A stretch of DNA of 64,000 nucleotides from Heliocidaris erythrogramma (Eukaryota; Echinodermata; Echinoidea; Camarodonta; Echinometridae): NCBI GenBank assembly GCA_025617745.1, contig CM046870.1, positions 3,663,285 to 3,727,284 on the forward strand, written 5' to 3'. Below the pieces are notes generated by a model. That model had not been told where the DNA came from. It saw only the letters and a program-made list of their open reading frames with translations, and ran no database searches. The number at the start of each line of letters is the position of its first letter. Position 1 is the first letter of the stretch. Of this stretch, positions 27,764-59,816 are shown piece after piece. The translations under genes and the position numbers were made by a program.

Positions 27764-28761
27764 CTATGACTCTTGGCACAGAATTAGAACTCACAACACA
27801 CGCGTTGCATGTGTACGTCGCACACACGGGCACTGTGCGTATCCTGTTATCGATTGCCGAACCTTTTTTCTACAAGCCTAGGCGGTAATTCGCGGTTTTG
27901 CACCAATTCGCGGTTTTGCACCTTCACACACGTGCACGATTGAACCAAAACATGCGAATTGCCCGTTGTATTATTGAACCAATAGAGATTGTGTACGACT
28001 TTGGTTCAACCGTGCGCCCAAAACGGTTCAACCGTGCACGTTAAATATACACACACTCTCTCTCTTCCCCTTTCTCTTTACTCATTGTCCTCTCTCTCTC
28101 TCTCTCTCTCTCTCGCAATATTTCACTCACTCCCCCTTCTTGTCTTTTATACTCAAACAATCTTTCTTTGCGTCTCTCCCATCTCTATTTCAATTCAGGT
28201 GTGTCACTGAAACACTTTTTAAGGAGGAGGTGGTGTCGGACCAAAGTTCAAAGAAATAAAATAGTTGCATTTAATCTGTCATCTAGAAATTACACCTTCC
28301 TTGTTATAGTCATCTTGTTTAGGTCATATTCCCTGATCTTTTTACTTTGTACGTACAATTATTTTCAGACATGTCATGATCATCGTCCATGTTATGTTTG
28401 TTTAATTCGTTTCAGAGTCAAGAGACTCACCGAACTCAGCACCTCTAGTAAGCAATAGAAACAAAAGAAGCGACAGATATGATTTGATCATTATCATAAT
28501 GGATTAAATGTTATGGAAAAATCGCCCCCCTCTCTCTCTCTCTCTCTCACCTCCAAATGGACAACACAACTGAGAAATAACACTCTAGAAGTTAGGCTGA
28601 ATTTTCTATGTTAATGAGTATATCATTTTTTTAGACTTCACATTGATCATTACACCTGTATAATTGTTTAATGTTTGTCTTTGCATATATCCGTTTCTAC
28701 TCAATAATCGTTAATTTATCATGTTCTTTAAAATGGACCAATTCACATTTTGTTATCATAG

Positions 28762-29065
28762 CATGTACATATCCTCCGCTGGAATATCAGAATAAGCGAT
28801 CGGGTCCAAAGTGGAACAAGACTTCATTGTGAGGCATATGCAGTACCCCTAGATGGACTACTGGATCGGTCTGACCGGCAACTCTTCTACGTCACTCAGA
28901 TGGTCGGGCGGATCACGTCTTACATACAACAATTTTGCCAAGAAGGATTCGTTCAAGGAAGGAGGGGAGTGTTTTCGAATCGTGTCATTCGGGAAACACA
29001 TATGGTATGATAGAAATTGCTCCTACAATTTCAGATACATTTGCGAGAAAGAAATGGAGGAATAA
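28762..29065 (+). pseudogene. C-type lectin-like domain exon, copy A (broken)
   Basis: After acceptor TTATCATAG the exon reads CTYPPLEYQNK, then loses 85 bp relative to copy B. It resumes MDYWIGLTGNSSTSLRWSGG...NNFAKKDSFKEGGECFRIV and ends WYDRNCSYNFRYICEKEMEE then stop. WIGL, the W-Y-D/NCS region and the paired cysteines mark a C-type lectin-like domain. The EPN or QPD sugar-specificity motif is absent, so canonical Ca-dependent sugar binding is doubtful. The deletion lies between two ATCG tetramers, and a stop replaces a lysine codon before the YWIGL block. It is the last exon of a plus-strand gene whose first exons were not found. An upstream mini-exon AG/AGTCAAGAGAC...CCTCTA/GTAAGC at about 28,417-28,449 could encode part of a Ser/Pro stalk. 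Confidence 0.75.
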
Positions 29066-29218
29066 TGATTTTATCTGTTTCTTTATTCAAAGTTTTCATA
29101 CTTTCTGGTTGCATCACTGATTGCATCATGATAGCTATAGGTTTGTGGGCGACATCGGGTAAAAGAAGAACCTCCTAAAAAAAAAAAAAAAAAAAAAATA
29201 ATACAAATACCTACGAAT

Positions 29219-30035
29219 TTGAAAAAACCCAAACTTAGACAAGGTTTTGACAGAATGAAATGTAGACCTAGAGATTTTACACTTTTTGAAACTGATTTGG
29301 AATCATTTTTAGAAAATATGGCAACGAGGAAATTTTATCGCGTTCTTTTTACAAGGATCTTAGTTCCTCCAACTTCTCAAAAAAAAAATGCCAGGGAATT
29401 AGATATCGCAAAAAGTGAATGGAAAAGTATTTATTTATTACCTTTTATATCAACTCTTGATATGAAAACAATATTTCAACACAAGATTAATATGAATTGT
29501 CTGTCGACAAATTATAGACTGTACAAGATGAAACTAGTTCATTCTGATTTATTTACATCCTGTAAAAAAGTGTCTGAAACAATTTAACGTATTTTCTGGG
29601 AATGTGAGCACACAAGCCTTATTTGTTAAAATTTCAAACTTGGTACAAAGAGAATACAAATTTGGATATATGTTTGAATTATAAGGAAATAATTATTACT
29701 TGGTATTGACTGGCATTTATTTTGGTTAAAATGATTATTTACAATGTTCGATACAAAAAACACACCCCTCATTTAGTGATTTTCAGTATCGAATTAAATT
29801 TCATTATTCTTTGGAAAATAGTTGGCGTTAAAAAACAACGCAATGGAGAAATTGTTTAAGAAGTGGCAAAAGCTAGGTATGAATACACTATTAGAGTGAC
29901 GTTTATTTTTTATTATGATACAATACAATCCGTTGTGTTTTGTTGAAGTTTTTATTGTTAAATTGTTTTAATTTGTATAATTGTTTTATTACCTCCATGA
30001 TTGGGCTTTCAATAAAATATGCCTCTCCTTAGGGG
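29219..30035 (+). mobile_element. LINE 3' remnant, copy A
   Basis: The frame at 29,219-29,587 reads WKSIYLLPFISTLDMKTIFQ, NYRLYKMKLVHSDLFTSCKK and, frameshifted, RIFWECEH. This is the C-terminal tail typical of non-LTR reverse transcriptases (NYRLYKM, S-x-C, FWECE). The reverse-transcriptase core is absent. A trailing AT-rich stretch ends near ATAAAATATGCCTCTCC. The same remnant in unit B shows it inserted before the duplication. Confidence 0.6.
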
Positions 30036-32342
30036 GTTGAAATACACCCCCGCGCGCCCACAGTTACACACACGCACAAAAAGCTTTGAGTCATGCAATT
30101 GTAAAGAAGAGGGGTAGTAGTGTATATGTATGTAGATTTACTTTACTTTATCATGGCCTTGTTACTACATAGGTTCGTAAACCGTTTGATATGAACTCGA
30201 ACATTTTGTTATAAAATTATGTTAGAAGCAAGCTCAAGTGTCCCATTTAAAGAGAGCAGAATAATATTTTAGGCATAACAAGTGATTGGTTAGTTAATTC
30301 CACGATTGCTTGATTGATTGATTGACTCATTTTGATCTTTCTGTAATGGTATATATTCATAATTTGTCTGCCTAGGCCCATTTATATGATCCCTTTGTCT
30401 CTATTACCCTCTCTACTTTTCCCCTCTTGCATTCTACTGGACTCTCTCTCTCTCTCTGTCTCTCCCCCTTCCTCTCTCTGCCTATCTCTCTGTCTCTTTC
30501 TTTATACTACACACCCTGTAGGATGACCACTCTTACATACACGTCAACGCAACCCAAGTTGATATCCTCCATTAAACAGAGTATCCTACCTCTTAGTCTT
30601 ATTATGAAATCTAAATATGAAAATGCTTCACTCGTGTTTTTAATTTTGCAAATATTTATTCAATGATCATAATCATATTTAATAGAGACATAAATCATAC
30701 CATAAAGGGAAACAACTGATGGTACTAATGAAATGTCCGGGATTTCAAGTGGAAATAATGAAATTTGTAAATGATATTTTCGAAACAGTGTGCAGCAAAA
30801 ATACTACACTAAGCTAATGTGAAATCAAATTGCCTTCTGGAAACAGTGGCTCCTAAACTAAACCCAGGGGAATAGGAGAATTTGAAGCTCGCGGTAAAAT
30901 TGAAATGCAATTCTTACATACTTTCTTCACTTAATGCGGCAAAGTAAAAATATGTACGTGTAGCTGATTTCTTTACCAACAGATCAAAGTATAGTTAATT
31001 GGAACTAAATGGATGCAACTGTGTTCTGAATTCGGAACTGTTCTTTTCATCTGATATATTGTACTCAAAGTATATACTTTTATCATTTGACAAATATGCG
31101 GAACTAGAACAAACTACCAATAAGTCTATTTGAGATTGGTTGCCATTCAGAAGCAAAATTAGTGAAAGTCAAAAGCCGTTGTCAAATTGATGAAGGAACA
31201 GCTCTCCAATTGAAGCATTCCTATAGTCCAGTGTTGAGTCAACGATCTTGTGTGTTCCAATCAATCATTACTTTGGGTTCAGGGGATTCCTAGCCTGATA
31301 TAAATAGAGAGAGAGAGAGAAGGACAAAATGCGGGACAAGGATAAAGAGAAACAAAACATATTATATTTTAAGCACAAAAATTGGTTTTCGATAGTTGTC
31401 TTTACTATCTTTAGACGTAATCATCTCGGACATCATTAAGAACTTTTCATGATATGCCCATCCAAACGTGAAAGTTCAGAGCTTCATCTTAATTGATTTA
31501 GGTACAGTATTAAATAGGAAGTCCAGTCCCAAAATTACTTGGTTTTAATTGAAGCAGAAAAGCCAGACCTACTAATCAAAAACAGTTTGGGGGAAATCGG
31601 ACAACTAATAAGAAAGTTATGAAATTTGTTAGTGGCATGAAAAACTAGGGAAAATAATCAAAATCCCTAAACAAATTGGCAACTCAGTTGTCAAAGAACA
31701 TGATTTTCAGATAAAATGAACAAAGTTGTATGCATTAATGTATATAAAAAATATTTATATATGCATGTATAAAACTTTACAAGATATTCCAGGAACCTGA
31801 AAATATTGAGATTGTTTTCAAAATGTTACATTTTCATCATCCCTCATTTTCTATGCATATTACATATATTAAAAAAACAGGATATTTGTACAAACAAAAT
31901 CATTTACTCTGTATTAGTGTATATATTTAAAGAAAATATTGATATGAATATCAGTTGGTTCAAGTCATGACAAAATCACATTTTTGTACAAAATTTTAGA
32001 ATTTGTATTATGAATATAAACAATATAATTGGAGCCAATGACGTCACAAACTTATGACTGAATTGTCAACTTGTTTAGTGATTTTCATTGTTTTCCATAA
32101 TTTTACTTGCCACTAAAAAAAAGAAAAATTCTTATCAGTTGACCGATTTTCTGCTTTAATCACTTTGGACGGGACTTTCCCATTAAATTTCTTTTAATTT
32201 GATGTAAAGTTTACTATATTTTATTGACAATATATCACAATTTTGAAAAATAAAGCGTGCCCAGATTCTTTTTGCCGAGTGTATTTAATCTTCCTACATG
32301 CATAAAGTATATCATAGGGGTAGCTTGCTACTGTCCACGAGA
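30036..32342. other. unit A spacer between lectin and repeat gene
   Basis: Conserved with unit B (54,065-58,150) apart from a 2-kb block missing here. A CT-rich tract (30,442-30,505) leads to acceptor CCCTGTAG followed by ATGACCACTCTTACATACAC, which can encode a Thr-rich MTTLTYTSTQPK; both units keep it, but I cannot tie it to a gene. A (GA)n run lies at 31,305-31,320. AATAAA on the minus strand at about 32,219-32,224 could be the poly(A) signal of the repeat gene. Confidence 0.5.
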
Positions 32343-33623
32343 TCAACATGTTGGTCTCGTGGGCTGTCGGCCTACTGGGATGTCCTCGGTGTAGATATAT
32401 AAAATAATCAGCCTATCAAAAAGAGTTCTAGTCGACTTACGTGGTGCTGGAGGTGGGGCAGCAGTGCTACTGCCTTGAGGTGGTGGGGATGGACCAGAGT
32501 TGTTATCGGATTCATTGCCTGGAGGGGGTGGAGATGGACCAGAGTCGTTGCCAGATCCTTCGCGTGGAGGGGGTGGAGATGGACCAGAGCCGTTGCCCGA
32601 TCCTTCGCGTGGAGGGGGTGGAGATGGACCAGAATCGTTACCGGATCCTTTGCATCGAGGTGGTGGAGATGGACCTGAGTCGTTACCAGATCCTTCGCTT
32701 GGAGGTGGTCGAGATGGCCCAGAGTCGTTACCAGGTCCTTCGCCTGGAGGTGGTCGAGATGGACCAGAGTCGTTACCGGATCCCTCACCTGGAGGTGATC
32801 GAGATGGACCTGAGTCGTTACCAGATCCTTCGCCCGGAGGTGGTCGAGATGGACCTGAGTCGTTACCGGATCCTTCGCCTGGAGGTGGTCGAGATGGACC
32901 AGAGTCGTTACGGGATCCTTCGCCTGGAGGTGGTCGAGATGGACCTGAGTCGTCACCAGGTCTTTCGCCTGGAGGTGGTCGAGATGGCCCAGAGTCGTTA
33001 CCGGATCCCTCACCTGGAGGTGGTCGAGATGGACCTGAGTCGTTACCGGATCCTTCGCCTGGAGGTGGTCGAGATGGACCAGAGTCGTTACGGGATCCTT
33101 CGCCTGGAGGTGGTCGAGATGGACCTGAGTCGTCACCGGATCCTTCACCTTCAGGTAGTGGAGACTGGCCAGAACGCTTGACAATTATGTCAATAAGCTG
33201 TGAAGGGTTACCGGTGCCATTACCCGGTCTTGGTGATGGGGGAGGTCCTGTGCCGTTGATAGGCGGTGGGGGGTTACCGGTGCCATTACCCGGTCTTGGT
33301 GATGGAGGGGGTCTTGGTCTTGTTGGCCGAGGCCGCGGTGGACGACCACCAGATGCTAAACAGATTTTCACGGACATAAAAAGAAGAACCAATGCAGTGT
33401 TATATAGGAAGGTAAAAGTAGCATAACGAAAATTATCATCTCTTATAACCCTACAAGGGTGAGTGCAAGCAACGTTCTTAAAATATTCACTTTTGAAAAT
33501 AAAGCACCTTTGCAGGCTAGTCAACCGTGTTGAAATATACATGTACTTACGAGCTTGTGCCGCACAAATAGCAGCGAGGACCAGGATGGCCAAAAGTCCG
33601 CTGAACATAATTCGGCTTGCCAT
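32343..33623 (-). CDS. secreted proline-rich N-glyc-repeat protein, copy A
   Basis: Exon 1 (33,551-33,623) encodes MASRIMFSGLLAILVLAAIC then AAQA, a clear signal peptide, and ends at donor GTAAGT. A 195-bp intron (33,356-33,550, acceptor CTGTTTAG) separates exon 2, which starts SGGRPPRPRPTRPRP. Next come two PGNGTGNP segments, a possible dibasic cleavage site IIVKR/SGQ, and 15 tandem 15-residue repeats close to PPPGEGSGNDSGPSR. Most repeats carry the sequon N-D-S; some have D-D-S or N-G-S. Exon 2 may stop at 32,343, with AATAAA about 120 bp beyond, or splice at a conserved donor GTAAGT (32,435-32,440) to an unseen exon. No enzyme or binding domain is visible, so it is a repetitive, probably heavily glycosylated extracellular protein. 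The two-exon leader-plus-repeat plan recalls sea urchin SpTrf and spicule-matrix genes, but the sequence matches neither. Frames on the other strand are shadows of the repeat. Confidence 0.8.
   Translation of the reverse strand: MASRIMFSGLLAILVLAAICAAQARKYMYISTRLTSLQRCFIFKSEYFKNVACTHPCRVIRDDNFRYATFTFLYNTALVLLFMSVKICLASGGRPPRPRPTRPRPPPSPRPGNGTGNPPPPINGTGPPPSPRPGNGTGNPSQLIDIIVKRSGQSPLPEGEGSGDDSGPSRPPPGEGSRNDSGPSRPPPGEGSGNDSGPSRPPPGEGSGNDSGPSRPPPGERPGDDSGPSRPPPGEGSRNDSGPSRPPPGEGSGNDSGPSRPPPGEGSGNDSGPSRSPPGEGSGNDSGPSRPPPGEGPGNDSGPSRPPPSEGSGNDSGPSPPPRCKGSGNDSGPSPPPPREGSGNGSGPSPPPPREGSGNDSGPSPPPPGNESDNNSGPSPPPQGSSTAAPPPAPRKSTRTLFDRLIILYIYTEDIPVGRQPTRPTC
32476..33170 (-). repeat. 45-bp coding minisatellite, copy A
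   Basis: About 15 units of 45 bp, each encoding PPPGEGSGNDSGPSR or a variant. The variants GDD, SRND, SGND, SGND recur in that order, giving a 180-bp higher-order unit in the 5' two-thirds. The last four units switch Arg to Pro (GPSPPPP). All units keep the reading frame. Confidence 0.85.
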
Positions 33624-33723
33624 TATGATGATATCAGCTCAGAGTCAGCCAATTCCTGTGCGTTGCTTGTGATCAGTATCAGGAAGGACACTGACTATGG
33701 CCTTCATGATGTTACCAGTCCTC

Positions 33724-33731
33724 TTTATATA
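33724..33731 (-). promoter_or_regulatory. TATA box of repeat gene, copy A
   Basis: TATATAAA on the minus strand, about 100 bp upstream of the ATG at 33,623. The identical box and spacing are kept in unit B at 59,543-59,550. Confidence 0.7.
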
Positions 33732-33992
33732 CATTTTCAAACCCGAAGATCTTAAGGGTAGGTACATTAGGTTACATTAATTCTGAGTTTACTATGCGTT
33801 AGATTTCAAGGCACAGTGTTTAAACAAACCACAGATGTCCGTGTCTGATACACTTCCTGAAGCATAACACCTTACCATCCCTTCTATCTTTTGCTTAATA
33901 AATCCATGTTTCTGATCACTGTCCATCTGTTGGCGTTCTGTTTGACTGTATGTTCTAAAGTATTTTATATCGTTTGTATTGGAGTGGTGTGC

Positions 33993-34492
33993 NNNNNNNN
34001 NNNNNNNNNNNNNNNNNNNNNNNNNNNNNNNNNNNNNNNNNNNNNNNNNNNNNNNNNNNNNNNNNNNNNNNNNNNNNNNNNNNNNNNNNNNNNNNNNNNN
34101 NNNNNNNNNNNNNNNNNNNNNNNNNNNNNNNNNNNNNNNNNNNNNNNNNNNNNNNNNNNNNNNNNNNNNNNNNNNNNNNNNNNNNNNNNNNNNNNNNNNN
34201 NNNNNNNNNNNNNNNNNNNNNNNNNNNNNNNNNNNNNNNNNNNNNNNNNNNNNNNNNNNNNNNNNNNNNNNNNNNNNNNNNNNNNNNNNNNNNNNNNNNN
34301 NNNNNNNNNNNNNNNNNNNNNNNNNNNNNNNNNNNNNNNNNNNNNNNNNNNNNNNNNNNNNNNNNNNNNNNNNNNNNNNNNNNNNNNNNNNNNNNNNNNN
34401 NNNNNNNNNNNNNNNNNNNNNNNNNNNNNNNNNNNNNNNNNNNNNNNNNNNNNNNNNNNNNNNNNNNNNNNNNNNNNNNNNNNNNNNNNNNN
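33993..34492. other. assembly gap (500 N)
   Basis: Exactly 500 N, probably a placeholder of unknown true length. It removes the right end of unit A; the matching unit B sequence continues through 59,816. Open frames running through it are meaningless. Confidence 0.98.
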
Positions 34493-36274
34493 GTTTTTAT
34501 TTCAATAATACGTCATAAGACTATAGTAATGAAAAGACTGTACAAATGAAATAAGCCAACGGGAGTGGATAACTGCAAAGCAATGGCCTTTATTCTGCGT
34601 AAGTACAAAACCTATGATTCTTTTTTGTGTCTTTAAAACACTAACACGATGAAAGCCTTGGGGTAAAATAGTATCTTGAAATGAACATGGCATAAGCGAC
34701 ACAATTTCTGAATACTTGCGAGCGCGCAAAAGAAAAAAAATCGACATTTTTTAATGAAAATGTAATTTTGTTACAGATCTATACCTACATCCGGTAGGTA
34801 ATTTCAAATTGTCCCTTTTTTCCCTCCTTTTTTCTCTCCCCCTTCCCCCTTTTATTTGGCGTGGAACTGATTTTTTTAATTGGGGGGGGGGGGGGGGGGC
34901 TGCCCCCCTCCAGTACGCCAGTGGCCACAAACACAGAATACTGATAAGGGCATATGGGACTACGCAAAAATATGGCCTACTTCAATAGGCCTATAACGCG
35001 TATATAGAGAATATATCGTGTTGTATTTGAATTACAAAGACATTGCGACAGTAATCCTTTCCATAATACGATTTTTTCCACATTAAAAAGATGAAGAAGC
35101 ACATAAATGTAGCTCAAAAACTATCTGTGTACCTTCATCATTAGCATGGGCGGGGACGTCCCCCCCCCCCCCCCCCCCCGAAATTATGAAGATTGTACAG
35201 AAACCAATGGTAAAGGCTAGTCGCTTTCCGTGACAAGAAATCGCCACAAATGATCAATAGATCTACCTCTTTAACGAAAACTCCTATTTGATCCTCATGA
35301 AGAATTTATCCACACTTTCTTCACTTTGGTTAAAACAGTTTAATTACTGCAGACATATAGTGCTATCATTCATAAAGGAAATTAATATTTAATTTCTTTA
35401 ACTTCATCGTTTCTCATCTTCGCTCTTTTATACAGCTAAATGCTTTTTCATAACACAAAGTATGTAATAATATCACTTCATATTGTATCACACTGCAAAA
35501 CCACAGCAACAACTCTAATATATCCCCATGAAATAGCACTTTTGCTTACATCAGTAACAAGTTTGATAATACAACGATTATAGAAAATCTCAATTTCTGG
35601 TCATGTTACATGTACATGTTACCTTTTTGAAAGTGACTTTGAATTCGCTTCTGCTTGAACCACGGGTGGTCTCTGTGAAATTGATTTCCAATAGAAGTCT
35701 TTGGGTTTTTTTTTTTAATTGTCTTGTTTAGTAATTGATACCAAATGATACCAGGATCATGCAATTCTGATATGCCAGTTATTAATTTCTTTCTTATCCG
35801 AATAGGACGAGCTTTTCCATAAAATTACAATGGCTTATAAATTTTTAAAACTAATCCCATGACTATTGCTGTTCGATTAATTTTTGTAACGTAGAAGTAA
35901 TTTTTCCTTTCTTTTGGTTGCAAGTCTGCCATGAACAGAAATTTTCCTATTGTCCTGTGTACATGTGTCAACACGAACACACACACACAAAACAAAAAAA
36001 AATCGATACAAAATTTGTGAGAAATCGTCTGTCTGAAGCAGTCTGAAGGCTAATCCATTTCGAATGTGTCAGACAAAAAGCTGTAAATATCAATCTCATG
36101 AACAGGAATGTAGGAGAAATTTGGCCAGCTACTTAAAAAATACAAAACACACACACCAGTCAAAGAGCTTACATAAAAGTGCATACAACAGTTGTGATAT
36201 GAATAAGAGATATCCTGAATGTATTACCGTAATTCAGATATATTTGACTGACATTAAACAGAATTAGCAACGGG
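34493..36274. other. intergenic
   Basis: No gene seen. Poly-G at about 34,883-34,900 and poly-C at about 35,161-35,179 are the only notable features; both may be misassembled homopolymers. Confidence 0.6.
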
Positions 36275-36435
36275 TTTATTGCCACTTGGTCTAATGCCAA
36301 CTGGTCGTATAGCCAAATGGTCTAACATAATTTGGTCTAATATCAGTTGGTCTAATAACCAATTGGTCTAATCATCATTTCGTCCAGTTACCAGTCCTGG
36401 TGTAATTGCCATTTCGTGTAATTACCATTTGGTAA
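36275..36435. repeat. TTGGTCTAAT degenerate minisatellite
   Basis: About ten units of 14-17 bp built on GCCAATTGGTCTAAT, becoming more divergent to the right (ATTTCGTCCAGTTACC, ATTTCGTGTAATTACC). Each unit tends to be internally palindromic (CCANNTGG). Confidence 0.75.
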
Positions 36436-39924: not shown

Positions 39925-40195
39925 CTCCTACTCACTCTCTCCCCCACTCTCTCTCTCTCTCTCTCCCTCTTATTCTTTCTCCTGCTTCTCTCTTTCTATC
40001 TCTTTCCCCCTCCCTTCCTCTTTACTCACTGTCTCTCTCTGTCTCCCTCTCCCTCCCTCACATACACACTCTCTCTCCCTCTCTCTCTCCCCCCTCTCTC
40101 TCTCTCCCTCTCATTCTTTCTCTTGCTTCTCTCTTTCTATCTCTTCCCCCTCCCTTTCTCTTTACTCATTGTCCTCTCTCTCTCTCTCTCTCTCG
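39925..40195 (+). repeat. CT-rich low-complexity tract
   Basis: Long (CT)n-rich DNA with an internal duplication about 138 bp apart (CTTGCTTCTCTCTTTCTATC-type block). Frames through it are artefacts. Just upstream, 39,853-39,898 can encode a Thr-rich PTTIATTIPKTSQ after an ACAG acceptor, a possible stalk segment for the lectin gene, with low confidence. Confidence 0.7.
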
Positions 40196-40801
40196 CAATC
40201 TTTCACTCACTCTCCCTTCTTGTCTTTTGTATCTGTCTTCCCTCTCAAACAATCTTTCTTTGCGTCTCTCCCTTCTCTACTTCAATTCAGGTGTGTCACT
40301 GAAACACTTTTTAAGGAGGAGGTGGTGTCGGACCAAAATTCAAAGAAATAAAATAGTTGCATTTCATCCGTCATCTAGGAATTACACCTTCCTTGTTTTA
40401 GTCATCTTGTTTAGGTCATATTCCCTGATCATTTTACTGACTACGGAGTCTACGACAGCGCCCAAGAAGAGCCCTACGATGACATCGAAACCCAGCAATA
40501 GAAACAAAGGAAGCTGCACATATGATTTGATCATTATCATAATAGGTTTAATGTTATGGAAAATCCCCCCCCCCCCTCGCTCTCTCTCACCTCCAAATGG
40601 ACAACACAACTGAGGAATAACACTCTAGAAGTTAGGCTGAACTTTCTATGTTAATGAGTATATCATTTCTTTAGACTTCACATTGATCATTACACCTGTA
40701 TTATTTTTTAATGTTTGTCTTTGCATATATCCGTTTCTACTCAATAATCGTTAATTTATCATGTTCTTTAAAATGGACCAATTCACATTTTGTTATCATA
40801 G

Positions 40802-48438: not shown

Positions 48439-49411
48439 TGTCCAGTCGTAGGGTTTCTACTAGGGAAATACAATTCCCGTCTCTCGGTCTTTTTCCTTTG
48501 GTGCAAAGAGAGAAATCAAACCCCTTCTAAGGCTCCTATTGGTTCAATTGCGGATTTCTTAATCTCGTTATTTGACAAAGGGAGATCTATTTCTACTATC
48601 CGAGGCTACCGTTCGGCGATCGGGGCCATTCATTCGGGTTTTTCGGATGGTTCGGGGATTTCCAATTCCCCGCTACTAAGTGGTTTGATTCGTTCGTTCT
48701 TTCTGAAACGACCTTCGTTTTCTAAGTTAGTGCCGTCTTGGAGTCTGCCTAAGGTCCTGGAGGCCTTGGCGAAACCTCCTTTTGAACCGTTAGGTGAAGC
48801 TTCGCTTCATCATCTTACGGTTAAGACGTTCTTTTTGGTAGCTATTGCCTCTGGGCAGAGGCGCAGTACTCTTCATGCTCTCTGTCTTACTCCTGGTCAT
48901 GTTCGCTGGGAGAGAAAAGGTGTTAGATTGATTCCTAGGGCTTCTTTCGTTGCCAAGAATCAGACAGCTGCCTCCGGTCCTGTTGAGATTTTTCTTTGTC
49001 CGCTTTCTAACTTTTCTTCGGTGCGTGAGGACAAAGTTTGGTGTCCTGTTAGGGCTCTCAAATGGTATATTGATAAGACTAAGTCTTATCGTAAGGATGA
49101 TCAGTTGTTCCTGATCACTAGAGAGCCTTTTTCTCCTGCCTCTCTTGATTCCATTTCTAGATGGATCGTTGAAGCTATTAGGGGCCGCTGGCACAGAGGC
49201 TCTTTTATCCGACAGTAAGCCTCGTGCTCATGATACTCGTAGTGTCAGCACTTCTTGGGCTCTGTTTCAAGGTGTGGCGCTTGTTGATATTTTGAAGGCT
49301 GCTTATTGGCGTTCGCCCAATTCCTTCATTTCTTGCTACCTTAGGGATATTCCCGCAGGTGAAGCTTTGTTTGCGTCAGCCACCTTGAAGGCCGCTGTGT
49401 CTTCTTTGTAG
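48430..49411 (+). CDS. DIRS tyrosine recombinase region (broken)
   Basis: A core-binding part near ISTIRGYRSAIGAIH, then a catalytic part with HHLTVKTFFLVAIASGQRRS, in which the Arg of GQRRS is a catalytic candidate. HDTRSVSTSWALF carries the His and Arg of the HxxR box, and the final tyrosine candidate lies in CYLRD. This enzyme would integrate the circular DNA copy. The region is broken. Confidence 0.8.
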
Positions 49412-49480
49412 TCTTTGGTGTAATCCTATTTCCTTCTGCTCGAAACATGCCTCCCGGTCTTTGAGTTGGCGCTGGTCTGG

Positions 49481-49572
49481 CATAATAGGTAGGTATATAT
49501 GATTTATTGCAGTAAATTTGTAAAATCAGCACTGATTTTCTTATTTACTATATAAATCTATATACCTACCTA
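49481..49572 (+). repeat. DIRS internal complementary region
   Basis: 49,481-49,520 is the exact reverse complement of 43,670-43,709, and 49,514-49,572 of 49,771-49,829. The two halves overlap on AAATTTG. In DIRS elements this region templates circle closure. Confidence 0.92.
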
Positions 49573-49632
49573 TGACCCTCCCTCCTTCCCCGCTCCTTGC
49601 AAGCAACATGTTTCTTCTTCGGGTTGCTCGCA

Positions 49633-49783
49633 AAAGAGGAAGATGGCCGTAGCGTATTGACGCGCGTGAGTGGCGAAGGGGACAATATGATTACGGGGGG
49701 GTGCGCACAATATTGTAACACATGTGTGATAATTCTCGAAGGGGTCCCGTAGTCAAGACTACAGGCATAATAGGTAGGTATAT
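49633..49783 (+). repeat. DIRS right inverted terminal repeat
   Basis: Reverse complement of 43,697-43,841; GACTACAGGCATAATAGGTA closes the shared part, and the unique right tail runs to 49,829. Confidence 0.9.
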
Positions 49784-49829
49784 AGATTTATATAGTAAAT
49801 AAGAAAATCAGTGCTGATTTTACAAATTT

Positions 49830-51479
49830 GTCTGATGTTACAAGTTAATATCGCCCAAAGAGTAAGTAATATGAAACTTAGATATCTGAATTCCATGTAC
49901 ATGTGAAAAAGAAGGATTTTTGATAAATCTTAATTTAGATGTTTTGTGATCAAAGTTTAATATCGAAAAGATTTATTACATACAGTTGTTATGAATGTAT
50001 TCGCTACACTACATGTGAGTTAGTGACGAGTGTTAATTTCATAAACAAATACGGTACTTATAAATGTGTATTTGGTAAAAGGAGATTATCATAAAGAAAG
50101 TATCGAAATTTGGGTGCTGTAAATGTGAGTTTTACAAAATAATTTGACACAAGGTGTATTAAAAAGTTCTGTCAGAGTGTCAGTTATGAAACTGCCAAAA
50201 AGGTTATCAGTGTAGAGCCTACTTAAACTTTAGACAGGTATTTCTGGTTAAAGGCAGTTTAGCTGTTCAAACTGTGCTTGTATTGGGTTTTCCTCTGCTC
50301 AGAATGTAGGTCGAAGTTCATATTATAGAGTATGTACGTGATTGAATACTAGTACATGTAATTTGTGTGTTTTAGAAATTAGAGCTACACAAATTGATGT
50401 AGCAATCAAGGCATTTTAATTTGGTGACTAAAAAACAGGAAACCAACCTTTATTTTATAAGGTGAAGTAATTGTAAATTTGCAGACATTTAAAGGGATAT
50501 CAGATCCACCTTGTGCTTTATGAGGCATGTATTGAATAATGGTCAGTGGTTTATTGTGGTTTAAATAGCACAAAAGCAATATACGTATTTGAGTTCATTT
50601 ATAATTAACTAGATGAATATATGCATATTCAAGAGAAACCATAGATTATTGAGTGATATCAATGTACGATTTAGATGAGGTCTGAATTTGATAAGATAAG
50701 CAGTAGCACATGTGGTTGTTTATTACAAAGGAATTTGTTTGGTATTTCTTTTGTGACATTAATTGTCAACTTATGTAGTTTTCTGATATTTGAGCTTACA
50801 AGTGAACCAAAGGAAGCTTTAATGTTCGATTCTTAAAGATGATTAATATCTGGTGTCATCAGAATGGTGAATATTTACAGTGTGTATCTGGAAAGCTAAT
50901 AGCAAACTCTTTATTCCAAGCAAGAATGATGAAAGTATCGAAGAAGTTTTGCATATTAATGTAGCTATAGCAGTTGATTATTAAGATAAGATATTTGGCA
51001 TATTGAGGACAGATTACTGTTTATTGTAAAACAAGAAGATGAGTGATTATGAACATCACTTCACTAAACTATATGTATTTTCTCTCTGTTTTCATTACAG
51101 ATTGAATAATTAGGAATGGAGTCCACATTAAACTCCAAACCTCCATACAACAAGCGATGTTAACTTTGTTTCTTCTGAGTCTACTATAACTTCAATGATC
51201 CAAATTCCACGATTGCTTGATTGATTGATTAATTGCTTTATTCATTCATTGAATGCTTTATTGAGAGACTGCTTGATGGAAGCTTTGACTGATTGTAATG
51301 GACCATGCTTGGTGATATTCCTTTTCTGACATCCATCGGTATGCCAGTTGAAAATGAAATGCTAAATCTGACCAAAAGGGTAAAATTCCAAAATAATAAA
51401 GTATTCAATTTGCTCACTCAAGCATGACAAATTGATGGGATATCTAAAAACACACATACAGCAAATTATATCATTTCAT
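49830..51479. other. unit B-specific intergenic DNA
   Basis: AT-rich, no gene seen. Near 51,209 a 20-bp stretch (CCACGATTGCTTGATTGATT) matches unit A at about 30,300, a footprint of shared ancestry. Confidence 0.55.
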
Positions 51480-53136
51480 TAGGTACGTTCACACGTAGAG
51501 CGATAGCATCGATGCTATCGAGGTGTCGATGCTATTTTGGTGAAGACCAGATAGTTTCGAAACCAAACGCTGTCTGAACGCAGATAGTCACGAGATAGAA
51601 GAGAGTTTCCAAACTATTCTTGCAGCGAGTTTAGCAGGAGTAAATCTTAGGATCCAGCGACAAAGCATCGACGCTTTGCGGTAGACCACCCACCGCGCTT
51701 GTGACTATTTGTGAGCGCAATCGCTGCTATCTTCACTCGCTGCTATTGTAATTGTGTCTGTTTCATGTGGTGCTATAATGCAATGTATGTATATGTGATG
51801 TACCCTCTTCCCTACTTTTTTCTATTATCATTCTGTCTGTTTCATCTGGTACTGTAATGTAATGTGATGTATGTAGGGGTAAGTAGGCTAATGTGTATAC
51901 TGTGTGGTAAGGAAGGGGTTGTTTTGTTGTTTGTTTTATGGGGGGTTCCTTCTTTTTATCTTTTTCTTTTTTATATATGACCAGGCACCTCAAAACCACT
52001 GAAGTCGCACTGTGTGATTTTCAGTTAGAGCTCAATTAGTTTTGGTTGGCATGCATGGTCAAATTTTAGTTTTGGGTATTTCCTGAAAGAGTATACTTTT
52101 TTCTAAGTAATCTAAAATGTGGAGGCACCAAACGATCTAGAAGTGGTATTTTTGACAGCTTTTTATCAGACTTATGTGTGTCTTCTCTGTATTTTGTTGT
52201 ATTACTTTTCTTTTTCACGACCCTGAATACTTGTCTCATTTTAATCTCCCATAAATCTCCCTGAGTAAGTTCTTGCATTGATACTTGTGCACTAAGATAA
52301 ACAGGATAGGTCTATGTAGTATGCCAAGTTTTAAGACAATCTGATAATCCCTTCATAGAAATTTTCATTGAGTTCTAATCCTCCATTTGTCACCTTAGCA
52401 CAACACTTTGCAAGTCAGAGTGCTTCAATAGACTGCAAACTTTAAACCCTTATTAAGAAGTAACATTATGAGGGACTGTGCATTCTTCTCTTTGTACATT
52501 GAGTTATGAACATCCAATGAGTTATATATCATTTTAAAGCTGAGAATCTGCTCTTTCAGAATCAGACCTTAACTAAAGTATGATGTGGTCTTTAGATATT
52601 GATTTACATGTGCTTACCAGAGAATATAGTGTGCATGCATGTGTTTTATTTTGGCATAAGATTCTCCTGACGACGGCCAGAGCATTCTGACCGGAACGTG
52701 CAGTTATTCCAACTCACATGGTTGTACCGCAAAACTTTTTTCTGAAGATTGGAGTTCAGTCAATTTTGACATGTACAAGGTTTATTTAAAATTAAGTATT
52801 ATAACACATGTATTTGCTACTTGATTGTATTATCGATATTACAAATGGATTGTTATTGTGTTATTATGTTGATTTATGAAGACAAATAAAATATTATTCA
52901 AAACAAAAGCTTCATGACCCCTGTACACAAACTTCCGCGCGTTTGACCATGCATACCAATTATACCCGGGTCACTCTGTGTGGCGCAGTAATTATTGTTT
53001 GGCAGCGGGTTAGCGATGAATAGTCACGAGTGGGTGATAGAAGCAAGTCGATCACGGCCTGTCTGAACGTACTGGAAATATTTTTGAAACTTACATAGCA
53101 TCGATGCTATGTACTACGTGTGAACATAACTATTAA
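51480..53136. mobile_element. 1.65-kb TIR element
   Basis: Ends with GTTCACACGTAG followed by ATAGCATCGATGCTAT, and inverted ATAGCATCGATGCTATGTAC then CTACGTGTGAAC. Sub-terminal motifs (AGATAGTCACGAG / GAATAGTCACGAG) lie near both ends. No transposase was recognised in the AT-rich interior, so it is probably a non-autonomous or decayed DNA element; the superfamily is unclear because the target duplication is ambiguous. Confidence 0.6.
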
Positions 53137-53562
53137 TTGTCATGAAGCCATTGGAATGTGAAAACTTCTAAGCCTTTACAGCTCACATCATTCTGAACTT
53201 TGCTGATGCATGTAACAACGAATACCAATCCTTGTCAAGCCTGGAGTTTGCACCCTTTCACATAAATAACTTTTGCACGCTCAAGTGTAACATTTTTAAA
53301 GAATTTCTTAAGTCATTTGACAGAAGAGACTCTAGGCTATACGTAGATTTAGAATCAGTTTGAAAATATTTTGAAATGTTCAGTTGGGTAGACTTTTTCC
53401 GAATGTTAACCTTTTTGGGGACACTCTGTAGAAGACATGTACTATAATTATACTGCCAATTTATTAATGAATTAATGACACAACATTCAATAAACAATAA
53501 TTCATAGCGAATGATTCCATCAGTGGTCTTCACCTCACAATCCGTTTTTGGTTATCTTTGCC

Positions 53563-53764
53563 CTTTCCTTATCACGACTTTGTATTCTTTCCCATCCCTC
53601 TCCCCACCCTCTCTCTCCCAATGTCTCATTTTTTATTGTCTCATTTTATACAAGTACAGTTCCATTTCCTTATCACGACTTTGTATTCTTTCCCTTCCCT
53701 CTCCCCATCCTCTCTCTCCCAATGTCTTATTTTTTATTGTCTCATTTTATACACGTACAATTCC
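53563..53764 (+). repeat. 101-bp tandem duplication
   Basis: TTCCTTATCACGACTTTGTA recurs 101 bp apart with few differences over the whole unit. Open plus frames in all registers reflect the T/C-rich content, not genes. Confidence 0.8.
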
Positions 53765-53928
53765 ATTTTTACTAGTTAATCCTTTTTTTATAGCAATAAC
53801 AAGATACAATAATTGTTATAATCTACTGAAATCCTTGAATCTGAATGGTTGAGAGCGAAATGGGGCAGTTGTTATTGATAAGTTTTATGAAACGGGACCC
53901 TGGTCTGCCTGACATATCAATGAAGAAC

Positions 53929-54069
53929 ACATGGGTCTCGTCTTATGAAGAGTTGCGCTTCATTCGAATCAAATTAATCACAATTGTATGCTTACGAGAT
54001 TGGAGTTGCGATTAGTTTGAAGTTGCGATAGATTTGAATCAATCGGAACTCTTTATAATACGGGGCCCT
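53929..54069. mobile_element. short hAT-like MITE
   Basis: TGGGTCTCGTCTTATGAAGA...ATTCGAATCAAATTAATCAC at the left mirrors TTGAATCAATCGGAACTCTT then TATAATACGGGGCCCTG at the right. A further isolated end, GAAACGGGACCCTG, sits at 53,892-53,905. It lies exactly where unit A and unit B resume matching. Confidence 0.6.
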
Positions 54070-55639
54070 GATATATATTCATAATTTGTCTGCCTAAGCC
54101 CGTTTATATGATCCCTTTGTCTCTATTACCTTCTCTACTTTTCCCCTCTTGCATTCTACTGGACTCTCTCTCTCTTTCTCTCTTTCTCTCTGTTTCTCCT
54201 CCCCTTCCTCTCTCTGCCCCATCTCTCTGTCTCTTTATTTATACTACACACCCTGTAGGATGACCACACTTACATACACGTCAACGCAACCCAAGTTTAT
54301 ATCCTTGACTAAACTGAATAGCCTACCTCTTCACTCGTGTTTTTAATTTTGCAAAATATTTATTCAGTTATCATAATCATATTTAATAGAGACATAATTC
54401 ATACCATAAAAGGAAACAACTGATGGTACTAATGAAATCTTTCTACATTTTTGTAAATGATATTTTCGAAATAGTGTGCAGCAAAAATATTACACAAAGC
54501 CGGTGTGAAATCTATCAAATTGCCTTCTGGAACCAGTGGCTCCTAAACTAAACCCAAGGGAATAGGAGAATTTGAAGCTCGCGGTAAAATTGAAATGCAA
54601 TTCTTACATACTTTCTTCACTTAATGCGGCAAAGTAAATATGTACGTGTAGCTGATTTCTTTACCAACAGATCAAAGTATAGTTAATTGGAACTAAATGG
54701 ATGCAACTGTGCTCTGAATTCGGAACTGTTCTTTTCATCTGATATATTGTACTCAAAGTATATTCTTTTATCATTTGATAAATATGGGGAACTAGAACAA
54801 ACTACAAATAAGTCTACTTGAGTTTGGTTGCCATTCATAAGCAAATTTAGTGAAAGTCAAAAGCCGTTGTCAAATTGATGAAGGAACAGCTCTCCAATGG
54901 AAGCCTTCCTATAGTCCAGTGTTGAATCAACGATCTTGTGTGTTCCAGTCAATCATTACATTGGGTTCAGGGGAGGCCTAGCCTGAGATAAATAGAGAGA
55001 GAGAGAGAGAGAGAAGGACAAAATGCGGGACAAAGATAAAGAGAAACAAAATATATTTTAAGCACAAAAATTGGTTTTCGATAGTAGTCTTTACTATCTT
55101 TAGACTTAATAATGTCAGACATCAGAAGCTCTTCATGATATGCCTGTCCAAACGTGAAAGTTCAGAGTTTCATCTTAATTTATTTAGGTACAGTATTAAA
55201 TGGGAGGTCCAGTCCCAAAATTACTTGGTTTTAATTGAAGCAGAAAAAGCCAGACCTACTAATCAAAATCAGTCTGAGGGAAATCGGACAACTAATAAGA
55301 AAGTTAAGAAATTTGTTAGTGGCATGAAAACTAGGGAAAATCAAAATCACTAAACAAATTGGCAACTCAGTCTTGAGTTTGAGACGTCATGGGCTCACAA
55401 ACTCACAAATCGTTTTGTTTAAACTGATAATATAAATTCTCAAAAAGTTGTCAAAGAACATGATTTTTAGATAAAATGAACCAAGTTGTAATATATAGTT
55501 ATATGCATTAATGTATATAAAAAATATTTATATATGCACGTATAAAACTTTACAAGATATTCCAGGAACCCGAAAATATTGAGATTGTTTTTCAAAATAT
55601 TACATTTTCATCATCCCTCATTTTTTATGCATAGTTAGC
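54065..55639. other. unit B spacer, conserved with unit A
   Basis: Matches 30,345-31,860: CT tract, Thr-rich segment after CCCTGTAG, and a (GA)n run at about 54,993-55,014, slightly longer than in A. No gene assigned. Confidence 0.6.
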
Positions 55640-57675
55640 AAAAATTACCCGTGGCACCATGGGGGGGGGGGGGGGGGGGGGGGTCTTCTCCTATGTACAG
55701 CCCAAGTATACCAATTCACACTGAAAGGCAATTAGTTTGTTGATGAAACATATTTGAATACTTGATTTATAGCAGACTTCTCTTTAAATATAGGTAGGAG
55801 GTTTCATTTAATTAGCATTAGGGGTTAAACTGGGGGGAAGAACTTGAATATGATTGCGGAGTGAAATCAAAATCTAACTATAGAATGGAAAAAAAAATGT
55901 ATTGTAACACAGTGTATTTAGTAAGCAGTCAAGAGGCAATTATTGTAATATAAAAGTGTCATCATTACATCTATTAAATAAATGTGTAAGTAGTTCTCCA
56001 ATTAAAGGTTGCTCAATCATATAGTGGAATGTTGAAAGAAGAGAAAGAGAGAGAGAGAGAAATACAGTGGGAAACAGTGGTGAGGAAAAAGAGTGTGTGA
56101 GAGAGAGAGAGAGAGAAATAGAAACGGTGGAAATATGAGAGTGAGAAACAGCGAGTGAGAAAAATGAGAAAGAGAGATAGAAGAAAAATAGACATGCAGG
56201 AGGATAGATAGAAATTATAAAGAACACAGGAGAGAGAGAGAGAGAGAGAGAGGATGTTTAGCTGCTGTGATGAAAAGTGATAAGATTTGTAGGGCTTCCA
56301 CTGGCATGTTTAGGTTTCTGATATTTTTTTTCCCTGGTAGGTTAAGTAGTTATACATTGAGCGAATTGATAAAAATACACATTCACTTATGGAACTCGTG
56401 AATCTTTTAAACGCCGTTATATGGGCATCTTCACTTTTTAGAATACAATATTCAGTTTCTATTCAAATAAATAACAATATTGGCAGGTGTATGTTAGATG
56501 AGTGGTGGATTTACGGGGGCACATCTAGTCCAGTCTGGCCTCTTTGAGTGAGAATCTATATACCCGAAATCCAACATAGAGGGAGACATGGTACAAGGCC
56601 TCTCAACCCGTCTCAACACCACCCAACAAAGAGTCCAGTACAATACTTTTGAATCCTGGAAATCCTAGGCATCAATCAAAACATTCTTGTCCCTGATTGG
56701 TCAAACAATCCTGGAGAGTTGGGGGAGGCGGTCTCTGGACATGCTTGTTGATCAGGAACGTTTAGTCTAGCGTACAGAACTTTTGCTTTCACCAAAAACA
56801 ACTTTACCTCAAAGATGATGAAAAATGCAAAGTTTTTATTAATTTCTACAAAATAACCATATTGTCATGACATTTGAACAGTAGCTATCCATGTTTTTGT
56901 TATGATATCGAGTTCTTTTTCCTCTCACCAAACGATTTCATCCATGAACTTAGTATTACAGTTTGGATCCTTAGACTATACCAATCAGCTGGAAGTAATC
57001 TGCTGGTTGGCATTCTTGATCTTCTTGGTTTCTACAGCGCGCTTGTTGCATTGTGTAACCTCCACACACTAGAAATCAGGTGCTGTGACTTGAAAACAAA
57101 TAACTTTTGGAAGAAAACTTCTTGCTGTTGAATTTATACCTTCGAATCTTTCTAACATTGATATTCATATTTGCAGTTTTCTTCCTTGGAATTATGTGTG
57201 TAAAAATTGACCTTCCATAATAATGGTGATCAAGGGACCCTGTTCATGCATGGTGCAAATAGATTTGTGTGGGGGGGGGGGGGGGGGGGCACTGCCTTTA
57301 CAAGTGGACATCATTGCTCGTACACAAAGCTTAAAAAGGGTTGTCTTTCATGGCCGGGTAATATATGTGCATACGGTTCGAAGGTATAAATTCAACAGCA
57401 AAAGTTTTCTTCCCAAATTTATTTCGCTGACCCGAAAAAGGTCGTAAGGACTGGGAACTTAGAAGCTTTACTCGGGGCCTGCCAAAGAAAGTTACGAATT
57501 GGAAAAAAACCTTCAAATAATACGACCAAAATACCACAAATAACCCCCTCATGACAATCTGGGCACAATTTAACCACGCAAAGTGGAAAATCACCAAAAA
57601 AAAGAAAAAAGGAAAGCGCATTCAAACAAACGGACAGACAGACAGACGGCCAAATTATAGTAAAGATTAAAAAAA
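55640..57675. other. ~2-kb block absent from unit A
   Basis: Unit A passes directly from ATGCATATTACATATATTAA to AAAACAGGATATTTG; here 2 kb intervenes. It starts with a poly-G run (55,662-55,683), holds (GA)n at about 56,045-56,115 and 56,230-56,252 and poly-G at 57,271-57,289, and ends with CGGACAGACAGACAGACGG. No terminal repeats, target duplication or coding domain found, so it may be an insertion here or a deletion in A. Confidence 0.6.
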
Positions 57676-58283
57676 AAAATCAGGATATTTGTACAAGAAA
57701 ATCATTTACTCTGTATTCGTGTATATATTTAAAAATATATTGATATGAATATCAGTTGGTTCAAGTCATGTGAGAAAATCACATGTTAGTACAAAACTTT
57801 AGAATTTGTATTATAAGAATAAAAACAAAATAATTGGAGCCAATGACGTTACAAACTCATGACTGAATTGCCAACTTGTCTAATCATTTTCATTGTTTGC
57901 CATAATTTTGCTTACTACTAAAAATCCATAACTTTCTTATTGGAAGACCGATTTTCCTCAAACTTTTTTTTTTATCTGTAGGTCTGATTTTTCTGCTTCA
58001 GTCACTTTTGGACGGGACCTTCCAATTAATTTTTCTTAAATTTGATGTAAATTTTACTATATTTTAGTGACAATATATAACAATTTTGAAAAATAAAGCG
58101 TGCCCAGATTCTTTTTGCCGAGTTAATTTAACCTTCCTACATGCATAAAGTATATCATAGGTGTAGCTTGCTACAGTCCACGAGATCAAGATGTCGGTCT
58201 CGTGGGCTTGTCGGCCTACTGGGATGTCCTCGGTGTAGATATATAAAATAATCAGCCTACTAAAAGAGTTTTAGTCGACTTAC

Positions 58284-59423
58284 GTGGTGCTGGAGATTCA
58301 TTAGCGGAGGTGGGGCAGCAGTGCTACTGCCTGGAGGTGGTGGGGATGGACCAGAGTCGTTATCGGATTCATTGTCTGGAGGGGGTGGAGATGGACCTAA
58401 GTCGTTACCAGATCCTTCACCTGGAGGTGGTCGAGATGGACCTGAGTTGTTACCGGATCCTTCCCCTGGAGGTGGTCGAGATGGACCTGAGCTGTTACCG
58501 GATCCTTCACCTGGAGGTGGTCGAGATGGACCCGAGTTGTTACCGGATTTTTCGCCTGGAGGGGATGGAGATGGACCAGAGTCGTCACTGGATTCTTCGC
58601 CTTCAGGTGGTGGAGACTGGCCAGAGCGCTTGACAATTATGTCTATAAGCTGTGAGGGGTTACCGGTGCCGTTATCTGGTCTTGGTGCTGGAGGAGGTCC
58701 TGTACCTGGAGGTGGTCGAGATGGACCTGGGTTGTTACCGGATCCTTCCCCTGGAGGTGGTCGAGATGGACCTGAGTTGTTACCGGATCCTTCACCTGGA
58801 GGTGGTCGAGATGGACCCGAGTTGTTACCGGATCTTTCGCCTGGAGGGGATGGAGATGGACCAGAGTCGTCACTGGATTCTTCGCCTTCAGGTGGTGGAG
58901 ACTGGCCAGAGCGCTTGACAATTATGTCTATAAGCTGTGAGGGGTTACCGGTGCCGTTATCTGGTCTTGGTGCTGGAGGAGGTCCTGTGCCGTTGATAGG
59001 CTGTGGGGGTTGCCGGTGCCATTACCCGGTCTTGGTGATGGAGGAGGTCCTGTGCTGTTGATAGGCTGTGGGGGTTACCGGAGCCATTACCCGGTCTTGG
59101 TGATGGAGGAGGTCCTGGTCTGTTGATAGGCTGTGGGGGTTACCGGAGGACGCGGTGGACGACCACCAGATGCTAAACAGATTTTCACGGACATAAAAAG
59201 AAGAACCAATGCAGTGTTATATAGAAAGGTAAAAGTATCATAACGAAAATTATCATCTCTTATAACCCTACAAGGGTGAGTGCGAGCAATGTTCTTAAAA
59301 TATTCACTTTTGAAAATAAAGCACCTTTGCAGGTTAGTCAACCGTGTTGAAATATACATACTTACGAGCTTGTGCCGCACAAATAGCAGCGAGGACCAGG
59401 ATGGCCAAAAGTCCGCTGAACAT
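58284..59423 (-). pseudogene. secreted proline-rich N-glyc-repeat protein, copy B
   Basis: Exon 1 (to 59,366), a 193-bp intron (59,173-59,365) and exon 2 (58,284-59,172) keep the same splice sites as copy A. The original ATG is destroyed (ATGGCAAGC becomes ATTAGGCAAGC). The next in-frame Met, MFSGLLAILVLAAICAAQA at 59,423, could still give a signal peptide. After the splice the frame reads SGGRPPRPPVTPTAYQQ and soon meets a stop, because small indels in the G-rich linker shift it. The repeat part itself encodes PPPGEGSGNNSGPSR-like units, fewer than in A, with a 285-bp in-frame duplication. Probably a non-functional sister of 32,343-33,623. Confidence 0.75.
58420..58990 (-). repeat. 285-bp tandem duplication in copy B exon 2
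   Basis: Two copies 285 bp apart (CCAGAGCGCTTGACAATTAT at 58,621 and 58,906), almost identical. Each carries several 45-bp repeats plus the unique dibasic-site segment. 285 is 95 codons, so the frame of the repeat is preserved. Confidence 0.85.
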
Positions 59424-59542
59424 AATTCGGCTTGCCTAATGGCTGATGATATCAGCTCAGAGTCAGCCAATTCATGTGCGTTGCTTGTGATCAGTATCTG
59501 GAAGGACACTGAATTATGGCCTTCATGATGCTACCAGTCCTC

Positions 59543-59550
59543 TTTATATA
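59543..59550 (-). promoter_or_regulatory. TATA box of repeat gene, copy B
   Basis: TATATAAA on the minus strand at the position equivalent to 33,724-33,731, in a conserved promoter block. Confidence 0.65.
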
Positions 59551-59816
59551 CATTTTCAAACCCGAAGATGTTAAGGTTAGGTACAATATAAGTTACATAA
59601 ATTCTGAGTTTACTATGCGTTTGATTTCAAGGCAGAGTGTTTAAACAAACCACTGATGTCCATGTCTGATAGACTTCCTGAATCATAACACCTTACCATC
59701 CCTTCTATCTTTTGCTTAATAAATCAATGTTTCTGATTACTGTCCATATGTTGGTGTTCTGTTTGACTGTATGTTCTAAAGTATTTTATATCATTTGTAT
59801 TGGAGTCGTGTGCTTT

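Follow-up and report, generated by a model that had tools for sequence, protein, structure and literature searches.

The SpTrf (Transformer, formerly Sp185/333) genes of S. purpuratus consist of two exons, with a first exon of 51-54 nt and an intron of 348-415 nt (Table 2 in PMC8634487), the mature protein lying wholly in exon 2, and encode proteins with Gly-rich, RGD and His-rich regions (PMC5491942), and the spicule-matrix proteins SM30, SM50 and PM27 hold a C-type lectin-like domain (CTLD) and Pro-containing repeats within one protein (PMC2909932). We analysed a 64,000-nt stretch of the genome of the sea urchin Heliocidaris erythrogramma (the window, C18:3663285-3727284), in which two units, A and B, each pair a lectin-like (CTLD) exon on the + strand with a repeat gene on the − strand that is predicted to encode a secreted, proline-rich protein of 15-residue repeats. 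A model of bindin (PF02084), a sea-urchin marker, gave no match in 14 control genomes and matches this 1.06-Gb genome at 2.1e-68, which supports its origin from a sea urchin. Our leading reading, to which we give a probability of roughly 0.55, is that the repeat genes would form a family of secreted, disordered, proline-rich proteins bearing N-glycans along their repeats, with the lectin-like exon an independent, mostly decayed passenger. Secreted mucins carry Pro/Ser-rich, glycan-bearing tandem repeats in variable number, whereas in the repeat described here N-X-S sequons form the basis, with one or two in every 15 residues.

The repeat gene resembles the SpTrf genes (PMC8634487, PMC3091723, PMC5491942) in its short leader exon, short intron, repeat-bearing exon 2 and promoter with a TATA box and an initiator (Inr), as well as in its tandem clustering and segmental duplications; GA/CT tracts, which flank the SpTrf genes, occur here beside part of the units. 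By contrast, its exon 1 measures 73 nt rather than 51-54 nt, its intron 162-224 nt over seven copies rather than 348-415 nt, and a splice donor closing exon 2 suggests a third exon; its product would consist of pure proline/sequon repeats with no His-rich region, and the predicted mature protein of gene A contains neither histidine nor RGD. A single CTLD and Pro-containing repeats are also found in the spicule-matrix proteins, but here they belong to separate genes on opposite strands, and the repeats are 15-residue sequon repeats rather than Pro-X-Y. The likeness to both families drawn by an earlier sequence-only reading holds for architecture only, and defining features of each family are absent. 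Nearest in style is phosphodontin (PMC2830187), in which a signal peptide is followed by many short Ser/Gly/Glu/Pro repeats, but its repeat of 11-12 residues is highly acidic and phosphorylated, and the available excerpt of that paper makes no mention of a sequon array. The C. elegans chondroitin proteoglycans (PMC8418075) contain a repeated E-G-S-G that the gene in the window and its near copies share and that a more distant paralogue, L050, lacks.

A tandem cluster on C18

Self-comparison of the window by blastn confirmed the two same-orientation copies of the lectin (+)/repeat-gene (−) unit that the sequence-only reading had described, and the cluster map described below agreed for unit A. 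The units are laid out as follows.

28057..33992: unit A, lectin exon (+) with repeat gene (−), unbroken as far as the assembly gap
33993..34492: 500-N assembly gap in the 5′ flank of gene A, with ~290 nt missing relative to G2-G4; the sole gap in 264 kb
34682..36433: flank of unit A resumed beyond the gap (C18:3697966-3699717)
40136..42442: unit B, lectin half
42443..54068: extra 11.6 kb present in B only, splitting unit B and holding a retroelement
54069..59813: unit B, repeat-gene half

The A and B pieces form alignments of kilobase length at 82-95% identity, so that the duplication is not down to chance, and their substitution divergence is ~6% overall and 2-10% by non-coding segment. CT tracts were located at 28090-28114, at 30442-30501 and where the A/B homology begins on its left, which falls short of showing a tract on both sides of each gene.

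Although both copies in the window are real, a count of two is too low, since a cluster map covering 264 kb (the window plus C18:3553285-3663284 and 3727285-3817284) placed five pairs and one lone repeat gene in C18:3.57-3.72 Mb. All repeat genes lie on the − strand (G1 at 3.574, G2 at 3.608, G3 at 3.617, G4 at 3.627, A at 3.697 and B at 3.722 Mb) and all lectin exons on the + strand (C1 at 3.593, C2 at 3.612 and C3 at 3.621 Mb, together with those of A and B), giving an array of five convergent lectin/repeat pairs plus a repeat gene that lacks a lectin exon, with A and B next to each other. Across 5.5-8.6 kb, the units of G2-G4 share 96.1-98.6% identity, and they stand in a gap-free tandem.

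Given that copy A stops exactly at the 500-N gap and that the A/B divergence of ~6% is near what we take to be urchin heterozygosity, we weighed whether A and B are two haplotypes of one locus, a possibility that the sequence-only reading had raised against itself. However, the sequence beyond the gap is of the flank type of G2-G4: the parts of it that match resemble the G2, G3 and G4 flanks at 93-96%, and the counterparts in those units start ~480 nt past the homologous promoter segments. Unit A therefore most likely crosses the gap, with A and B as consecutive tandem units. This post-gap flank, the tandem order and the gap-free G2-G4 tandem make a two-haplotype artefact very unlikely, and the cluster held up. 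When the left flanks of A and B were initially compared, no similarity emerged, which left the haplotype question where it stood. Further along C18, the sequence at C18:3738951-3740705 (L040) is 82-85% like the repeat-gene 5′ flank, with no repeat gene adjoining it in the map, and is perhaps a relic unit.

Paralogues, whose number the sequence-only reading had left to a count, proved to be numerous. A genome search with the 505-nt 5′ end of the repeat gene, the place counts of which, like those for the lectin exon below, are lower bounds, found at least 11 places, on C18 only: the six cluster genes and five further places at 4.001, 4.0075, 4.101, 4.112 and 4.294 Mb, two of which are short matches. 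One of these five, L050 (4.294 Mb), was read.

The repeat gene and its sequons

The predicted elements of the repeat gene, all on the − strand, are as follows.

33692..33731: promoter elements that the copies share, with the TATA box TATATAAA at 33731-33724 and the Inr-like TCAGTG having its A at 33692
33551..33623: exon 1 of gene A, coding, 73 nt, with leader MASRIMFSGLLAILVLAAICAAQA, near-identical in G2-G4 and L050
33356..33550: predicted intron of gene A, GTAAGT...TTTAG, 195 nt
32441..33355: exon 2 of gene A, ending at the conserved donor APR/GTAAGT
32487..33161: fifteen 45-nt units of gene A, consensus RPPPGEGSGNDSGPS
58284..59423: repeat gene B, broken

In gene A the TATAAA lies 106 nt from the ATG and the TATA box 37 nt from the initiator, and without splicing at APR/GTAAGT the reading frame continues to a stop ending at 32343. 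The TRF program delimited repeat arrays at 32472-33173 (A) and 58329-58626 (B). Five of the seven copies read are open from leader to stop (G2, 384 aa; G3, 399 aa; G4, 399 aa; A, 361 aa; and L050), whereas G1 and B are not. Gene B retains the promoter, the leader and a second ATG (59423), but has lost the first ATG and carries a frameshift early in exon 2, a 285-nt internal tandem duplication and a 14-nt insertion near its end. The predicted intron measures 200, 200, 200, 193, 224 and 162 nt in the six copies other than A. The donor closing exon 2 is kept in phase in L050, and identity falls past it (56/114), which makes a third exon likely. Since the absence of stops from a 45-nt unit keeps further frames open as well, an open frame by itself is weak proof of a gene, and it is the conserved promoter, splice sites and leader that back the repeat gene beyond its open frame.

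The mature protein of gene A would be 30% proline, 21% glycine and 1% alanine, with 32 acidic and 26 basic residues. Pfam named no family for the repeat protein, the queries being the unspliced reading frame of A and the longest in-frame piece of B. The leader is signal-peptide-like by its sequence, and the chain is putatively disordered. The N-terminal segment RPPRPRPTRPRP, with a later IVKR, was considered as a candidate Pro-Arg antimicrobial peptide, a reading that we did not retain.

To describe the array, units were read from G2, G3, G4 and A in 45-nt steps for as long as they ended in SG[PL]S, which yielded 68 units, 26 of them distinct, in successive steps with no frame break. An N-X-S sequon is present in 63 of the 68, and [DE][GA]SG in 51, a motif held by 3.3% of shuffled consensus units. 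The invariant SG at repeat positions 12-13 was dropped as evidence because the units had been chosen by a pattern that contains it.

In L050, the leader exon (68/73) and the upstream sequence (92/107) remain close to those of the cluster gene, although the intron is only 52% identical (85/162). Its unit, PPPPSNGSGNYSGPS, lacks E6 and D11, keeps N10-x-S12 and carries a second sequon, N6-G-S8. With two sequons per repeat, L050 has 36 N-X-S/T in 303 aa, and in 15 stretches, selected by this very pattern, NGS precedes NYS, NFS or NHS. By contrast, it has no [DE][GA]SG, although GSG is retained, and it holds 2 acidic and 10 basic residues. Both kinds of copy therefore have the sequon in common, but not the motif that resembles a glycosaminoglycan attachment site. 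A block reading IVKRSG stands ahead of the array in A and within the array in L050. A leader and a sequon array are thus kept across diverged paralogues, as would be expected of a secreted protein with N-glycans on its repeats.

Substitution patterns are consistent with constraint on the predicted protein. Third codon positions are the most variable over the 68 units (minor-base counts of 50, 60 and 148, which are not independent events), and the 38 changes that distinguish the 26 different units include 17 synonymous ones, where relocating the changes leads one to expect 11.4 (P = 0.015). Between A and B, the non-repeat parts differ by 7 synonymous and 3 non-synonymous changes (P = 0.005), or by 9 and 9 with the first and last units included (P = 0.03). 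Over the leader and mature start, L050 differs from A by 8 synonymous and 4 non-synonymous changes (pS 0.246, pN 0.047, P ~0.003) and from G2 by 8 and 5 (P = 0.008).

The lectin-like exon and neighbouring elements

Both lectin-like exons in the window carry the CTLD sequence signature, and both are broken.

28762..29065, +: lectin-like exon A, its start inferred from the preceding AG
40802..41191, +: lectin-like exon B, with one extra base near 41046

Pfam Lectin_C matched B (3.9e-11), the later part of A (4.5e-10) and an open copy, L011 (3.1e-21), and the top phmmer matches of both pieces in the window were CTLD chains. Exon A has an 85-nt deletion at ~28802, where the A/B offset changes between 12040 and 12125, and a TAG stop at 28850; the single lesion of B could be an assembly error, those of A hardly. 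Thr-rich stretches are candidates for upstream exons of the lectin.

Across the genome, the CTLD exon occurs at no fewer than 22 places, split matches being counted once: five on C18 (3.59-3.70 Mb), 16 in three groups on C9 and one on C4, so that 17 of the 22 lie off C18. The C9 groups (3.3-3.6, 5.2-5.45 and 10.2-10.6 Mb) are 70-77% identical to the C18 exons and amount to a sizeable CTLD expansion. All 15 exons fetched from the 16 C9 places are open, whereas on C18 only C1 of five is, leaving C1-G2 as the sole pair with both genes open and the CTLD broken in the other four. Within these lower-bound searches, the lectin exon has no place at C18:4.0-4.3 Mb, where five repeat-gene places lie, and the repeat-gene 5′ end has none on C9, the main lectin chromosome; the two families are therefore separable. 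The functional link between lectin and repeat protein that the sequence-only reading had allowed for is not borne out by this distribution or by the broken CTLDs, and the pairing looks incidental, with the lectin a passenger that is probably outside the system.

In sugar-binding C-type lectins, EPN or QPD and WND are the calcium-site motifs. None of the seven open CTLDs that were aligned (of 16 open) contains EPN or QPD, and WYD or WHD replaces WND, which makes calcium-dependent sugar binding by these domains doubtful. Between A and B, the CTLD exon differs at 3/301 positions, compared with 17/301 in the intron (P = 0.002) and 27/576 in the adjoining 3′ stretch (P = 0.003). Divergence is low farther 3′ as well, however (15/644, P = 0.21), so that recent constraint and patchy conversion are indistinguishable for the lectin exon.

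Several other elements share the window. An open reading frame (ORF) fragment common to both units, at 29200..29640 (+) in A, with ORFs at 29141-29587 in A and 41305-41715 in B, is presumably LINE-like and resembles the terminal part of a reverse transcriptase of the non-LTR kind; Pfam gave no match for the A copy (29141-29587) and only a sub-cut-off match for the B copy. Its presence in both units makes it probably an insertion predating the A/B split. The retroelement within the extra sequence of unit B (43670-49830) has ORFs at 44604-49218 of 627, 721 and 259 aa, the second matching RVT_1 (8.4e-21) and the first and third named by no Pfam family. Close to its two ends lie the arms of a 170-nt inverted repeat (96%), and shorter repeats occur inside it; from its ORF order and inverted ends we take it to be DIRS-like. 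An exact 28-nt match joins 51203-51230, in the middle of the extra sequence of B, to 30296-30323, within 61 nt present in A only, and is perhaps the original junction of two separate insertions or a common simple-repeat-rich stretch.

Rfam at gathering thresholds reported two tRNAs and nothing else. These genes (37935-38006 and 38352-38423) form a tandem duplication of ~420 bp, a tRNA-Arg(TCT) and a copy with the anticodon TTT (Lys), at 65.5 and 59.8 bits; they differ at four of 72 nt, all C/T or G/A, and minimum-energy folding (-30.0 and -24.2) predicts a textbook clover leaf for neither. A satellite-like array at 61563-64000, whose units measure ~120-133 bp and which also shows longer periodicities, of 216-238 bp, runs past the end of the window.

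Competing readings and a possible function

The reading of a secreted N-glycan-bearing repeat family draws on predicted gene structure, copy number, conservation of the frame, sequon density and decay of the lectin exon, all read from the genomic sequence. Of the sequence-only reading's unnamed secreted-protein cluster, the duplicated gene stands, with a predicted secreted, proline-rich sequon-repeat product that Pfam does not name, and the tie to the lectin falls away. No description of the repeat-protein family was found in the literature covered, which comprised titles and abstract openings and left subscription journals mostly uncovered. No confirmed homologue of the lectin or the repeat protein was found in IMG/VR contigs, nor of the repeat protein in GTDB contigs, as expected for an animal gene.

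Several observations weigh against this reading. The family is known here from the genome alone, with no homologue outside it in collections of viral and prokaryotic sequence, where none is expected; two of the seven repeat-gene copies read are broken; and the suspected exon 3, which would encode the C-terminus, was not found. Array tests are not significant for A alone (P = 0.14) or for A with B (P = 0.115), the first and last units of A and B show no constraint (pS 0.063, pN 0.068), and over the 90 non-repeat codons of A and G2 the sense frame is marginal (8 synonymous and 8 non-synonymous changes, P = 0.079). Wherever counted, the mirrored antisense frame equals or nearly equals the sense signal (array P = 0.014; A versus B, 7 and 2; A versus G2, P = 0.048; L050 versus A, 7 and 5), and the strand is therefore chosen by the leader, promoter and splice sites. 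In addition, a repeat duplicates its own sequon, so that the sequon counts are not independent events, and NDS is a weak acceptor sequon.

Among the alternatives, the least unlikely is a biomineral matrix protein of the test or tooth, templating or hydrating mineral in the manner of phosphodontin, a secreted urchin tooth protein with 35 repeats akin to EISSGEGEQPK (PMC2830187); it has also been suggested that the biomineral matrices of invertebrates generally contain disordered simple repeats (PMC2614417). Phosphodontin is strongly acidic, however, whereas A is near neutral and L050 basic, and the low alanine content of A and its lack of a Kazal domain in Pfam are unlike the tooth proteins of PMC2614417. 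An immune effector family acting like the SpTrf proteins, which are induced in phagocytes upon immune challenge, is a reading that we rank next and also consider unlikely; it would fit the shared architecture, the TATA/Inr-like promoter, the tandem cluster and the CT/GA tracts that lie on or close to the borders of some units, and the TATAAA-to-ATG distance in A falls within the 101-111 nt of SpTrf; yet the spacing from TATA to initiator (27 nt in SpTrf) does not agree, exon phase and sizes differ, exons are probably three, and His and RGD are missing from A. Glycosaminoglycan attachment lost its place as the favoured reading because L050 lacks the motif. A proteoglycan core, with EGSG units xylosylated on serine and bearing chondroitin or heparan sulfate, accords with the frequency of [DE][GA]SG in the cluster units relative to shuffled ones and with the E/D-G/A-S-G of C. 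elegans chondroitin proteoglycans (PMC8418075), but with no such motif, two acidic residues and about double the sequon number in L050, the one far place read of five, we rank it after the immune reading.

The two remaining explanations concern the locus rather than the role of the protein. That selection keeps lectin and repeat protein together as a functional pair, such as a receptor with its decoy or ligand, is very improbable: five pairs share the same convergent arrangement, C1-G2 is intact on both sides, and A and B differ less in the CTLD exon than in the intron and the adjoining 3′ stretch, but the sequence further downstream is little diverged as well, most lectin places are on other chromosomes, and the repeat gene is open in four of the five pairs while the CTLD is broken in as many. 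We give still less credence to a non-coding minisatellite that is open by chance. Stop-free 45-nt units would indeed stay open in other frames, and the pattern at third positions recurs in the mirrored antisense frame, yet leader, promoter and splice sites are conserved in L050 across a poorly conserved intron, all 68 units are in register in four genes, and pN is below pS in the non-repeat part.

Returning to the secreted N-glycan-bearing repeat family, we infer that the genes are transcribed and spliced, and the signal peptide would then export the protein from the cell. The N-X-S sequons, one or two per unit, would make the presumably disordered chain an N-glycan brush with a mucin-like effect that is N-linked, and the dibasic IVKR/SG site may serve to cleave the precursor. 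The simplest role, and the one we favour, would be a hydrated coat outside cells that protects or traps microbes; it may act in mucus, the coelomic fluid, the extracellular matrix, the test or the tooth. The family would expand by tandem duplication of ~10-kb units, while arrays acquire or lose entire 45-nt units, the number of units, and with it array length, varying among copies as does copy number, and the lectin-like exon would have been carried along by the duplications and mostly decayed at the C18 cluster. Secreted proline-rich tandem-repeat proteins are already known as a class, in animals the job of a glycan-dense rod usually falls to O-linked mucins, and a dense N-sequon design is, to our knowledge, unusual. 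Taking the sequon as the best-kept feature of the repeat, we tentatively speculate that selection acts on the N-glycan density of a disordered rod, an "N-mucin" that would perhaps be a decoy for microbial lectins.

If expressed, the family would be a test case for the diversification of repeat proteins, as array length, sequon density and charge vary while leader and promoter are near-fixed. It would also give sea urchins a second changing tandem cluster, beside SpTrf, whose genes join a leader exon to a repeat exon, and would raise the question of whether animals make mucin-like coats from N-glycans.

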